Below, one piece after another: positions 4,999-56,353 of a DNA stretch of 64,000 nucleotides; the first letter of the stretch is position 1, and each line of letters opens with the position of its first letter. A model generated the notes under the pieces. It worked only from the letters and a program-made list of their open reading frames with translations. It was not told where the DNA came from and did not search any database. The stretch lies in the NCBI RefSeq assembly GCF_008728855.1, contig NZ_CP042906.1:1364001-1428000 (forward strand), read 5' to 3'. Source of the DNA: Hypericibacter terrae (lineage in GTDB: Bacteria > Pseudomonadota > Alphaproteobacteria > Dongiales > Dongiaceae). Position numbers and translations under genes: made by a program.

Positions 4999-5018
4999 AT
5001 GACGGGAGGAGGCTGGTC

Positions 5019-49710: not shown

Positions 49711-50577
49711 GTGGGCGGGAAGCGGGTATGGATCGAGGCGTCCTACAACCCGGTGATGGATCTCAACGGGCGGCCCTGGAAGGTAGTGAAGTTCGCAACC
49801 GACATCACCAAGCGCAAGGATCAGAACGCGGCGCTCGCCACCGAGTACGAGACCGGCGTCAAGAGCCTGGTCGAGAAGGTCTCGGCCTCGGCGACCGAGA
49901 TGCAGGCGACCGCTCAAACCCTGGCCGCCGCGGCCGAACAGACCAACCAGCAATCTTCGACCGTCGCCGCGGCGTCGGAAGAGCTGGCGAGTTCCGTCAC
50001 CGAGATCTCGCGCCAGATCACCGAATCGACGAGGGTGATCGGCACCGCCGTCAGCGAAGCGAAACGGTCCGAGCAGATGGTGGCGGCGCTGGTGGCGGCC
50101 GCGCAGAAAATCGGCGACGTCACCCAGATCATCGCGGCGATCGCCAGCCAGACCAATCTGCTGGCCCTCAACGCGACCATCGAGGCGGCGCGTGCCGGCG
50201 AGGCCGGCAAGGGCTTCGCCGTGGTCGCCTCGGAAGTGAAGTCGCTTGCCAATCAGACGGCCAAGGCCACTGAGGAAATCGAGCAGCAGATCCGCTCGAT
50301 CCAGGAATCGAGCCACAATACGGCCTCCGTGATCGGCGAGATCGGCAACATCATCGGTCAGGTCAGCGAGTTCAGCACCTCGATCTCGGGCGCCGTCGAA
50401 GAGCAGTCGGCGGCCACGCGGGAGGTTTCGCTCAATATCACGGGTGTCACCCAGGCGGCCGAAGAATCCGGGCGCTCCTCGGCCAACATGCTCACCAACG
50501 CGCAGACATTGTCGCAGCTGTCGACAAACCTCGGGGCCCAGGTCGATCGGTTCCTGGCGAATGTCCGGGCGATGTAG
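49711..50577 (+). pseudogene. 5'-truncated methyl-accepting chemotaxis protein
   Basis: A 288-residue open frame beginning at GTG in the middle of a PAS domain: [20 protein letters not shown] and [11 protein letters not shown] are the last third of such a domain. The methyl-accepting and signalling part is complete, with hairpin tip [20 protein letters not shown]. An in-frame stop at 49684 precludes an upstream start nearby, and no membrane segment remains. Intact relatives have one or two whole PAS domains. It is either a decayed gene cut by rearrangement, or a minimal cytoplasmic receptor. A 14-bp hairpin follows at 50595. Confidence 0.72.
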
Positions 50578-50745: not shown

Positions 50746-50885
50746 GCGGGGCCTCGAAAAGGCCACGGCTCGTCGCATTGAGGCCGGCGCTCCGAGGGAG
50801 TAATGCAGAAGACAGAAACGTCATCGGCACCCCACGCCGACCAAACTTCCGATCCCGGGATCCCCGTAACCCGGGGTCTTTTTAT
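50746..50885 (+). ncRNA. putative structured small RNA, copy A
   Basis: About 140 bases without a gene, homologous to 51553-51692. Shared blocks in the same order are GCGGGGCCT, CGAAAAGGCCAC, GGGAGTA, a hairpin TCGGC-ACCCCAC-GCCGA, and a final terminator. The terminator stem is GATCCCGGG with CCCGGGGTC (one G-T pair) followed by TTTTT at 50879-50883. Other possible stems are GGCCT-CGAA-AAGGCC and GCATT with AATGC. I do not recognise a known RNA family. Confidence 0.5.
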
Positions 50886-50943
50886 GTGAAGACCGGAAGA
50901 GCCGCGGATGCTTTTCCGTCCGAGATATCGCCCGGGCGTTCGC

Positions 50944-51342
50944 CTATTCGCGCCAGAAGGAGTTGGCGGTCTCGTTCTCGACCTGGGCTCGCGAGAGACC
51001 GAGGTCTTTCAGCATGTGATCGCTAAGCTCGGAAAGATGCTGTCGACTTTGCGCGCGCTCTCGCCATCGGCGCAGCCAGGCAGTCACGCCTTCGACCAGG
51101 CCTGTGACCACCTGGCCGAGGTTGCGCAACGTCGGTACGGGCCGCAATCGCCCGATATCGCGATCGACCGGCAAGCTTGCCGGCGCCGCGGCCCTCTCGC
51201 ACGGACGATGCAGAGAGCCCGGAAGGGCACGGCCCTGGAGCGAGTCGAAGACGAAATCGAGCGCTGTCGGGGAGGATCGGCCCTGGCTGCCGGAGGAAGG
51301 AAGGCCCGCCCGCCGGCGGAAGGCCCGCAATCTGTTGCTCAT
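50944..51342 (-). CDS. DUF1127 domain protein with N-terminal extension
   Basis: A 132-residue protein. The last 40 residues are a DUF1127 (YjiS-like) domain: WRERAQSRQHLSELSDHMLK followed by DLGLSRAQVENE and the closing FWRE. The N-terminal 90 residues are Arg/Pro/Ser-rich and of low conservation. DUF1127 proteins in alphaproteobacteria bind RNA or affect small-RNA turnover and stress responses. The ATG at 51342 is the best in-frame start but has only a weak ribosome site. The gene is flanked on both sides by homologous putative small RNAs on the other strand. Confidence 0.75.
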   Translation of the reverse strand: MSNRLRAFRRRAGLPSSGSQGRSSPTALDFVFDSLQGRALPGSLHRPCERAAAPASLPVDRDIGRLRPVPTLRNLGQVVTGLVEGVTAWLRRWRERAQSRQHLSELSDHMLKDLGLSRAQVENETANSFWRE

Positions 51343-51552
51343 GGGGAGGTTCGCTCTGGAGCGCGGACCGAGAGGCCTCGGCTGCGCTCCTCCTTGCGTG
51401 GGTACCGGCGGACTGCCGGCGACCGACACGCTACGGAGTTCGAGTCCGGCGGAAATCGGGAGGCTTCCCCATTTTAGGGCCGCTCTTTCCCCATTTTCAG
51501 CGGTTGCAGCGATGCGCCCGGCCGGTTCGGCAAGCCGAAAGGTGGAGGCGAG

Positions 51553-51692
51553 GCGGGGCCTGCCCCGAAAAGGCCACCCTTCGTCCGGTTGCCGAGCCCC
51601 TGGGGGCGGGAGTAGACCCGAGGAAATCTCGTCGGCGCCCCCCACGCGCCGAAACCTTATGACCCCAGTCCTGTCCGGACTGGGGTCTTCTT
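51553..51692 (+). ncRNA. putative structured small RNA, copy B
   Basis: Homologue of 50746-50885. The hairpin TCGGCGC-CCCCCAC-GCGCCGA keeps the C-rich loop while the stem is lengthened, which is the kind of change expected in a conserved structure. It ends in a perfect 11-bp terminator stem GACCCCAGTCC and GGACTGGGGTC with tail TTCTTT. No gene precedes this terminator on the plus strand. Confidence 0.5.
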
Positions 51693-51780: not shown

Positions 51781-52326
51781 TCAGGTGGCGAGGGTCGACA
51801 AGCCGATCGTCTTGGGCGTGGGTGCCGGCAGATCCTCCGGATCGGCCATGAGGCTTTCCTTGCGCTCCTGCAGCTGGGCCCCGATGGCATCCAGATCCAG
51901 GCCCTTCGCACGGGCCTTCGCGAAGATGCCGCTGCGCGGCTTCTCTTCTTCCTGGACATGGTGCTTGATGTATTCCGTCAGCACCGTGACCTTGGCGTCG
52001 TAGCAATCGGAAGCCGCCGACTGGTTCAGCAGATCGGCGATCAGGAACTTGGCGCCGTCGTGCTCGACCTGGGCTTCGTCCATGGCGTCTTCTTCGACCC
52101 CCTGCTCTCGGCAGGCCGGATAGAAGATGTCCTCCTCGAGGGTCGTGTGGACGATGAGTTCGGCACAGATCTGCTTGACCAAAGCTTCCTTTTCACGACC
52201 CGATGCCTTTTCCGATTTCTTGAACAGCTTCTCGACTTTGCGGTGGTCCGCCATGAGCAGCGACACGGCGTCGTCGGGGACGTCTGTCCGGGCCGGTCGC
52301 TTGGCCTGAGGTTTCTTGGCACGCAT
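51781..52326 (-). CDS. hemerythrin HHE domain protein
   Basis: A 181-residue four-helix protein with the non-haem diiron ligand pattern: His in LLMADHRKVEKLF, His and Glu in IVHTTLEEDIFYPA, His in EAQVEHDGAKFLI, and His with Glu in YIKHHVQEEEKPR. A basic N-terminal tail (MRAKKPQAKRPAR) precedes it. Such proteins sense or bind O2, NO or iron. The ATG at 52326 follows AGGAG about ten bases upstream; a longer frame exists upstream but would have a low-complexity leader. It is a single gene. Confidence 0.88.
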   Translation of the reverse strand: MRAKKPQAKRPARTDVPDDAVSLLMADHRKVEKLFKKSEKASGREKEALVKQICAELIVHTTLEEDIFYPACREQGVEEDAMDEAQVEHDGAKFLIADLLNQSAASDCYDAKVTVLTEYIKHHVQEEEKPRSGIFAKARAKGLDLDAIGAQLQERKESLMADPEDLPAPTPKTIGLSTLAT

Positions 52327-52702: not shown

Positions 52703-53062
52703 ATGGCTAGCAGCGAAGACATCGAAAGGAGACTGGAAGCGACGGAAGCCACCCTGCAAGCGATGTTCTGCACGGTGACGGCGGACCTGATCATGTTTCA
52801 GGCGGCTGTCATGGCGCTGCGCGAGGAGGGTGTACTGACCGAGAGGATGGTCGACCGGATGACGATCGACGCGCAGATCCGACTGCAGCAATACGACAGC
52901 TCGGCGCTGAGCGCGCCGATGGTGACAGAGATTGCGGCCCAACTGGACGGGTTGGCGGAGCGGCTGCGCGGGGCCTCGCGATCGGCGCCCCTGGTCAACC
53001 CGTCCGGCATCGACAATGGCTATGGGCGAGGGAACGGCGACGCGAGACGCTCCAGTCGCTAG
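52703..53062 (+). CDS. small helical protein, paralogue of 55976 (copy 1)
   Basis: A 119-residue soluble protein of unknown function. The conserved core is shared with the gene at 55976: MFCTVTADLIMFQAAVMALR, LTERMVDRM, and LDGLAERLRGA. The C-terminal 20 residues are Gly/Asn/Arg-rich and diverged. It begins with a short coiled-coil-like heptad (DIERRLEATEATLQ). The ribosome site CCGAGGC and the start are also conserved between the two genes. A GC hairpin follows at 53073. Confidence 0.72.
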   Translation: MASSEDIERRLEATEATLQAMFCTVTADLIMFQAAVMALREEGVLTERMVDRMTIDAQIRLQQYDSSALSAPMVTEIAAQLDGLAERLRGASRSAPLVNPSGIDNGYGRGNGDARRSSR

Positions 53063-53473: not shown

Positions 53474-53989
53474 ATGACACGCTTTTCCCTTCTTCTCGCC
53501 AGTGCGTTGATCCTCGCGAGCGGCGCCGGCGGGGCCGTATGGGCCCAGAACTCGTCCGCGGGCGCCAGCACCGGCGGCAGCCTTGGAGCCACCAGCGGCA
53601 GCGACACCGATACCGGTGCCCCCAGCAGCGACATCTCGGGCGGCGGCCCCCTGGGCAACAGCACGCCGGACAGCGCCACGAGCCCGACCACGAACAGTCC
53701 GGGCACGAACACGAATACCTATTTGAACACCAATACCCGGATCAATCCGAACACCGGCACGAACACCAATACCGGCACGATCGGCTCGACCAGCGGCGGC
53801 AGCAGCGCGCCCAGCTCGACCGGCACCGATACGGGCACGAACACCGGCATCGGCTCCAACGCCGGTGTCGGCTCCAATGCCGGTGTCAGCACGGGCGTGG
53901 GGTCGATCGGCAGCAGCGGTCATATCAACACGGTCACGGGGACGGGCGGCGCCAACTCGAGCCTGCCCACCACCAGCACGATGCCGTAA
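53474..53989 (+). CDS. exported Gly/Ser/Thr/Asn-rich low-complexity protein
   Basis: A 171-residue protein with a clear signal peptide (FSLLLASALILASG, cleavage near VWAQ). The rest is built of short repeats of T/N/G/S, such as TNTNTYLNTNTRINPNTGTN and SNAGVGSNAGV, with almost no charged or bulky residues. It should be an extended, flexible periplasmic or surface protein. GGAGG lies five bases before the ATG at 53474; an ATG at 53462 is in frame but lies before the ribosome site. The repeats may expand or contract by replication slippage. Function unknown. Confidence 0.7.
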   Translation: MTRFSLLLASALILASGAGGAVWAQNSSAGASTGGSLGATSGSDTDTGAPSSDISGGGPLGNSTPDSATSPTTNSPGTNTNTYLNTNTRINPNTGTNTNTGTIGSTSGGSSAPSSTGTDTGTNTGIGSNAGVGSNAGVSTGVGSIGSSGHINTVTGTGGANSSLPTTSTMP

Positions 53990-55975: not shown

Positions 55976-56353
55976 ATGATGACGATCGAGGACATCCTGA
56001 AACGCCTCAATGAAACGGAATCCGCAGTGCAGAACATGGTGTGTACGGTCACGGCCGACATCATCATGTTTCAGGCGGCGATAGTCGCCCTCCGCGAAGA
56101 CGGTATCCTGACCGAAAAGGTGATCGACCGGATGGCGATCGCGGCGCAGGATCGCATCGCGTTCTACGATACTGATGTGCTCGGCGCGGGCGGCGTGGTG
56201 GAAGTCGCGCGGCGGCTGGACAACCTGGCGGAGCGTTTGCGTGAGGCCCGCGGGCCCACCTATCTGCCGCAACGGCCGAGCGGTCTCGAGCTCACGACGA
56301 ATGGCAACGGCAGGGGCAGGGTACGGGCTCCGCGCAAGATGCTCGTCGCATGA
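55976..56353 (+). CDS. small helical protein, paralogue of 52703 (copy 2)
   Basis: A 125-residue soluble protein. Compared with the copy at 52703, it keeps VCTVTADIIMFQAAIVALRE, the LTEKVIDRM block and LDNLAERLREA, while the C-terminus differs. No signal peptide or known domain is seen. Start at ATG 55976, after CCGAGGCTGCC. It lies between the two copies of the CDLGPPRFD lipoprotein gene, within a duplicated region. Function unknown. Confidence 0.72.
   Translation: MMTIEDILKRLNETESAVQNMVCTVTADIIMFQAAIVALREDGILTEKVIDRMAIAAQDRIAFYDTDVLGAGGVVEVARRLDNLAERLREARGPTYLPQRPSGLELTTNGNGRGRVRAPRKMLVA

Follow-up and report, generated by a model that had tools for sequence, protein, structure and literature searches.

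A pair of terminator-ended blocks in a 64,000-nucleotide stretch of the Hypericibacter terrae genome (NZ_CP042906.1, positions 1,364,001 to 1,428,000; the whole stretch is called the window below), together with a third block in the genome of a sister species of the same genus (G001), very likely represents a real RNA family of three members in two species. Each of the three copies has a GGCC-type 5′ hairpin (H1), then G(A/G)GAGUA, a hairpin with a CCCCAC loop (H3) and AAAC(C)UU, and closes with a strong intrinsic terminator. We interpret them, with moderate confidence, as paralogous genes of a narrow small RNA family (~140 nt) that would act in trans via the C-rich loop. The analysis used the covariance models R1 (built from copy 1 alone) and R2 (copies 1 and 2), neither of which includes the terminators, and the three-copy model R3. 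The features of the locus, in window positions, are the following.

50746..50885, plus strand: RNA copy 1, candidate small RNA of ~140 nt, terminator-ended (models R1, R2, R3)
50750..50764, plus strand: hairpin H1 of copy 1, GGCCU-CGAAA-AGGCC
50796..50802, plus strand: GGGAGTA block of copy 1
50824..50840, plus strand: hairpin H3 of copy 1, 5 bp, loop ACCCCAC
50851..50883, plus strand: terminator of copy 1, 9 bp stem and T-tail
50944..51342, minus strand: DUF1127 protein gene, 132 aa from ATG (PF06568, 55.4 bits); a neighbour, not a conserved partner
51553..51692, plus strand: RNA copy 2, candidate small RNA of ~140 nt, picked up by the copy-1-only model at 26.0 bits
51557..51575, plus strand: hairpin H1 of copy 2, GGCCU-GCCCCGAAA-AGGCC
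51608..51614, plus strand: GGGAGTA block of copy 2
51632..51652, plus strand: hairpin H3 of copy 2, 7 bp, loop CCCCCAC
51661..51692, plus strand: terminator of copy 2, 11 bp stem and T-rich tail
51781..52326, minus strand: gene for a hemerythrin-like protein, in convergent orientation to copy 2 (PF01814, 48.1 bits); neighbour only
52703..53062, plus strand: small protein A, of a family without a name; a relative lies 171 bp past the G001 terminator stem

The two copies in the window are spaced 807 bp apart and carry the same motifs in the same order, GCGGGGCCT at 50746, CGAAAAGGCCAC at 50755 and GGGAGTA at 50796 in copy 1, and GCGGGGCCT at 51553, CGAAAAGGCCAC at 51566 and GGGAGTA at 51608 in copy 2. 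Exact occurrences of CGAAAAGGCCAC number two in the whole window, and the pattern GGCCTN{0,8}CGAAAAGGCCAC has exactly two matches in the H. terrae genome, both at these copies. Over the ~70 bases upstream of the copies the identities are merely scattered. The terminators follow AAAC(C)TT at a similar spacing in both copies, and an intrinsic terminator stands at the 3′ end of all three copies, including that of G001. The first-pass annotation, made from the letters of the window, had described shared ordered blocks at two sites, and both were found where it had placed them; its strong terminators with T-tails were recovered with stems of 9 bp (copy 1) and 11 bp (copy 2), and its C-loop stem extended by paired changes corresponds to two additional pairs in H3 of copy 2, in which both strands change together. 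Its statement that no gene precedes either terminator stood in part. Between copies 1 and 2 no supported plus-strand gene was seen, but a chemotaxis gene on the plus strand has its end at 50577, leaving 168 bp to copy 1, which could therefore belong to the 3′ end of that gene. Judged from open reading frames and family matches, the copies lie outside supported same-strand genes, as intergenic terminated small RNAs do. A scan for promoters of the sigma-70-like type found none before any of the three copies.

Whether copies 1 and 2 are alike by descent was assessed by alignment and by covariance search. Plain local alignment of the two gave a score of 32, which none of 2000 dinucleotide shuffles reached; an unrelated part of the window, however, scored 34 against copy 1. 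Under gap-tolerant scoring copy 2 was the top match of copy 1 in all three schemes, and with copy 2 as the query copy 1 tied in two schemes and came second in one. Because an unrelated stretch scores higher and copy 1 ties or comes second as a match of copy 2, homology would be borderline if judged by sequence similarity alone. R1, searched as the first-pass annotation had proposed against the whole 5.9 Mb H. terrae genome, ranked copy 2 first after copy 1 itself (26.0 bits, E 0.012), the next match scoring 17.9 bits; for the window by itself the E-value of copy 2 is 1.3e-4.

When 17 genomes of the order were searched with R2 at E up to 3, those other than H. terrae gave four matches, among them a weak one on the plus strand of G001, the one other genome of the genus covered (G001:C1:4575308-4575412, 21.5 bits, E 0.77). 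Inspection of this place revealed the blocks GGCCAC, TTCGTC, ATTG, GAGAGTA (replacing the GGGAGTA of copies 1 and 2), a CCCCAC-loop hairpin, GAAACTT and a terminator, in that order; in its fold H1 pairs GCC with GGC. The terminator, with a stem of 11-13 bp and TTTT, comes directly after the R2 match. By a criterion that was fixed after the copies had been seen, terminators number 12 per 400,000 strand-bases in a 200-kb sample of G001 (both strands), and the chance that one starts in a given 15-nt interval of this sample is 0.045%. Among 62 model matches, some places being counted twice, a terminator directly follows copy 2 and the G001 copy, and the other 60 are without one; outside the window, the G001 copy is the sole one of 61 tested matches with this feature. 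Taken together, the weak E-value and the independent terminator feature make it very likely that the G001 copy is homologous to copies 1 and 2. The claim of two homologous terminator-ended candidate RNAs is thus upheld, and the third member adds weight to it. Flanking the G001 copy, both on the minus strand, are the genes of an ABC-type permease and of a beta-keto acid cleavage enzyme.

The folds of the three copies were then compared. Against shuffled sequences, copy 1 folded better than 185 of 200 (z −1.67), copy 2 better than 198 of 200 (z −2.63) and the G001 copy better than all 200 (z −4.45). The pairing letters of H1 are identical in copies 1 and 2, with no variation there, and the free energy of H3 is −6.8 kcal/mol in copy 1 (50824-50840) and −12.7 kcal/mol for the stretch folded in copy 2. 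In a model-fitted alignment of copies 1 and 2, which uses the structure taken from copy 1, 5 of 13 pairs are changed on both sides (two in H2 and three in H3), 96.2% of cells pair as against 26-50% for slid versions, and the observed pair counts are reached by 15 of 500 shuffles; since such an alignment leans toward the structure, the pair changes are support and no proof. A middle helix GCAUU/AAUGC of copy 1, considered as a covarying element, fails in the fitted alignment of copy 2. RNAalifold on the unfitted alignment of the three sequences gave an unfavourable covariation term of +1.44 with 8 of 30 pairs changed on both sides, and its consensus fold recovered the core of H1, H3 and the terminator. 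CCCCAC is kept in all three H3 loops, on stems that differ in length and sequence.

How far the family extends was examined in further genomes and databases. With R3, 21 of 40 genomes had a match at E up to 3, strong ones being confined to H. terrae and G001, where the strong G001 score holds by construction; no other convincing member was seen in the 38 relatives. The next best R3 match (25.4 bits, in G014) is without a terminator after it, and for a match in L184 the terminator falls within the match itself and not directly after it. R2 searched against 385 genomes of the class matched one, that of H. terrae itself, at E up to 0.02 with stricter filters, settings that would have missed the G001 copy; as this threshold would miss members at a G001-like distance, the result excludes near relatives only. 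Among the matches listed by a blastn search of the locus against 16 relatives were similarities to the DUF1127 coding region, in G001 and other genomes, and no full-length RNA. The pattern CGAAAAGGCCACN{15,40}GGGAGTA was found in one of 61 genomes, that of H. terrae, and the looser AAAAGGCCACN{15,40}GGGAGTA in two of 385 genomes of the class, H. terrae and G053; the G053 place is AT-rich, looks like chance and was rejected as a family member.

Pattern searches in public contigs, from which records of the H. terrae genome may have been left out, returned 16 stretches for GGGGCCTN{0,10}CGAAAAGGCCAC in genome contigs and 36 for a looser pattern in viral contigs. Two features mark all three true copies, G(A/G)GAGTA no more than 60 nt past the block and a suitably spaced CCCCAC; the former was present at none of the 52 contig places and the latter at one (L111), with L087 and L099 cut short by the contig edge at 71 and 70 nt, respectively. 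Of the 52 places, L087 had the highest model score (24.3 bits, E 0.0023), which rests on the block used as the search pattern.

The first-pass annotation had correctly placed a DUF1127 protein between the copies on the other strand (PF06568, 55.4 bits), and had proposed a functional link between this protein and the RNAs. That link did not survive the comparison with the sister species. RNA and gene lie on opposite strands, and in G001 the pair of chemotaxis gene (read by eye) and DUF1127 gene, which still adjoin at ~1471.6-1471.9 kb of C1, has no RNA between them, the best unfiltered R1 scores there being 9.2 and 5.8 bits. Conversely, no DUF1127 match lies within 200 kb of the G001 RNA at ~4575 kb, the nearest being at 4330014 and 4788441. 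Of the 11 DUF1127 matches in the H. terrae genome (E up to 0.01), 10 exceed the family cut-off; RNA copies lie beside one of the 11, and the other ten have no model match within 90 kb. In 18 hemerythrin or DUF1127 neighbourhoods of relatives, unfiltered R1 scored nothing above 12.6 bits. With the third copy lying elsewhere in the sister species, the most likely role of the DUF1127 gene next to copies 1 and 2 is that of a bystander.

Several features of the DUF1127 genes themselves were observed. Directly before the ATG at 51342 (minus strand) no Shine-Dalgarno-like sequence is present in window positions 51342-51395, and AAGGAGGAG occurs ~45 bp upstream of this ATG with no start codon close by. 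Further upstream lies a direct repeat, AAAATGGGGA-12 bp-AAAATGGGGA (window 51466-51497, minus strand), which looks like a putative regulator site of the DUF1127 unit. This same pair, spaced at 22 bp, has a single occurrence in G001 (C1:1472724-1472755, minus strand), between what we take to be a LuxR-type gene and a pair of DUF4242-like and DUF1127 genes, and has no exact match in 15 other genomes of the family. Elsewhere in the H. terrae genome (G000:C1:1195964-1196440, minus strand) three DUF1127 matches adjoin, each with a 271-aa open frame, and a similar triplet is present in G001 at 1258076-1258552.

We then considered what else the three copies could be. Copies 1 and 2 both converge on a minus-strand gene, ending ~60 bp from the DUF1127 stop and ~90 bp from the hemerythrin stop, respectively. 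Within the scanned region, a minus-strand terminator-like site that follows DUF1127 sits past copy 1, at 50735-50716; a DUF1127 transcript could therefore carry the complement of all of copy 1. These positions would suit cis-acting convergent RNAs, each antisense to the untranslated end of the minus-strand gene beyond it. We regard this as unlikely, since what is conserved is the RNA and not its neighbours, and since the G001 copy is co-directional with the next gene and lies 171 bp ahead of it.

That next gene encodes protein C (107 aa; G001 L180:5115-5438), on the same strand as the RNA and 171 bp after the terminator stem. It is related to protein A and to its paralogue B (window 55976-56353, plus strand; 53% identical to A), with 36-37% identity over ~70 aa (E 3e-11 for A and 2e-11 for B, single comparisons). 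No Pfam or NCBIfam family covers the three proteins, and a plasmid collection held no relative of A. G001 also encodes a relative at L223:15246-15593 that shares 68% identity with A over 99 aa and is without a model match nearby. The copies might accordingly be 5′ leaders that end in a terminator ahead of a downstream gene, in the manner of an attenuator or riboswitch, and this small helical protein family is the natural candidate for that gene: the G001 block and terminator precede C, and A begins 1010 bp after copy 2. We hold this to be unlikely to a similar degree, because the minus-strand hemerythrin gene sits between copy 2 and A, the minus-strand DUF1127 gene comes after copy 1, and the L223 member stands without an RNA. 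Neither the antisense nor the leader reading fits all three copies.

The small number of copies, their narrow distribution and the borderline resemblance of copies 1 and 2 could also be accounted for by non-functional sequence, either decayed repeats or mobile remnants, or chance-alike gene-end terminators, copy 1 being the 3′ end of the chemotaxis gene. The third copy, which has the fold and the terminator in a different species and an unrelated genomic location, and stem changes that keep the hairpin while the loop is unchanged, render this quite unlikely.

We find it doubtful that a genus-restricted RNA spreads within genomes along with the small helical proteins and has in them an RNA-binding or regulatory partner, as CcsR has in DUF1127 elsewhere. 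Because the L223 member was found in a 200-kb sample, the protein family may be many-membered and its nearness to the RNA may be chance; we therefore treat the link between the RNA and the A-B-C proteins as a lead. A Gly/Ser/Thr/Asn-rich protein with a signal-like start is encoded at window positions 53474-53989 (plus strand), and a like protein (read by eye) lies near the small-protein member in G001, at L223:12593-13111.

A short conserved peptide gene is very improbable: one frame gives the look-alike peptides LEKATARRIEAGAPRE, PEKATLRPVAEPLGAG and PEMATVRLIEKAHGRE in the three copies, but a shared start codon was not seen, the frame stops at 50803 in copy 1 and at 51662 in copy 2 and is open through the terminator in G001, and conservation runs past the end of the copy 1 frame into the C-loop hairpin.

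Weakest of all is the reading as a CcsR/CIN1 (cuckoo, ar14) locus, a DUF1127 gene with co-transcribed anti-Shine-Dalgarno RNAs, which has in its favour the repeated C-rich-loop RNAs beside a DUF1127 gene and is rendered scarcely credible by the strand opposite to DUF1127, the lack of CCTCCTCCC nearby and of any ar14 match over the cut-off, and the absence of the association in G001.

Each of the closest known systems shares a feature with the present RNAs. Like CcsR/CcaF1 at the CIN1 locus, more than one homologous RNA lies beside a DUF1127 gene. In Rhodobacter sphaeroides a single transcript that includes ccaF1 is processed to give the CcsR RNAs (PMC10253847); here each copy has its own terminator, the opposite strands make such co-transcription with DUF1127 impossible, and RNA and DUF1127 gene are apart in the sister species, the one relative in which a CIN1-type association could be judged. 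Like ar14/cuckoo (RF02344, including NfeR1), the family is alphaproteobacterial, of similar length, and keeps a constant C-rich loop on varying stems. According to PMC10746234, ar14 has three hairpins, each carrying CCUCCUCCC, with differing stems and identical loops, whereas a single CCCCAC hairpin is present here. No ar14 match exceeded the cut-off in the 17 genomes searched (H. terrae and 16 relatives); the best H. terrae match (18.8 bits) lies elsewhere, and the locus itself has none at E up to 10. No CCTCCTCCC occurs within 45 kb of the copies, the sole one of the window being at 5004-5012 on the minus strand. These results agree with the earlier remark that the RNA is apparently different from CcsR, and strand and missing CCUCCUCCC exclude membership of CcsR/ar14. 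Sub-threshold ar14 matches of 30-35 bits (cut-off 58.8) in five relatives (L166, L167, L168, L169 and L170) are possibly diverged cuckoo-type RNAs; such matches were also seen in three unrelated control genomes. The duf1127 leader attenuator of Sinorhizobium meliloti is likewise an RNA element near a DUF1127 gene, and differs in having a same-strand upstream ORF, with evidence against an intrinsic terminator (PMC12218461).

Comparison with Rfam, another check that the first-pass annotation had suggested, showed that neither copy reaches the threshold of any model. The top-scoring sub-threshold match was to 6C RNA (RF01066), at copy 2 (22.8 bits against a gathering threshold of 47, E 2.9). In 6C RNA, too, a second hairpin comes after one with a C-rich loop, but the match covers H3 and the terminator only. 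The candidate small RNA family is therefore not covered by any Rfam model, and it is only relative to Rfam that we call it new.

On our preferred reading, that of a trans-acting small RNA family, each copy would be transcribed from its own promoter as a stable, separate RNA. The exposed C-rich loop would pair with G-rich sites at mRNA starts and, by analogy with the anti-Shine-Dalgarno loop RNAs, this pairing would lower translation of the targets. Neighbouring genes, DUF1127 included, would not be partners. The copies add a candidate small RNA family beyond Rfam coverage and, with a constant C-rich loop carried on changing stems and lacking CCUCCUCCC, they would allow loop-driven target pairing to be tested in an alphaproteobacterial group that has received little study.
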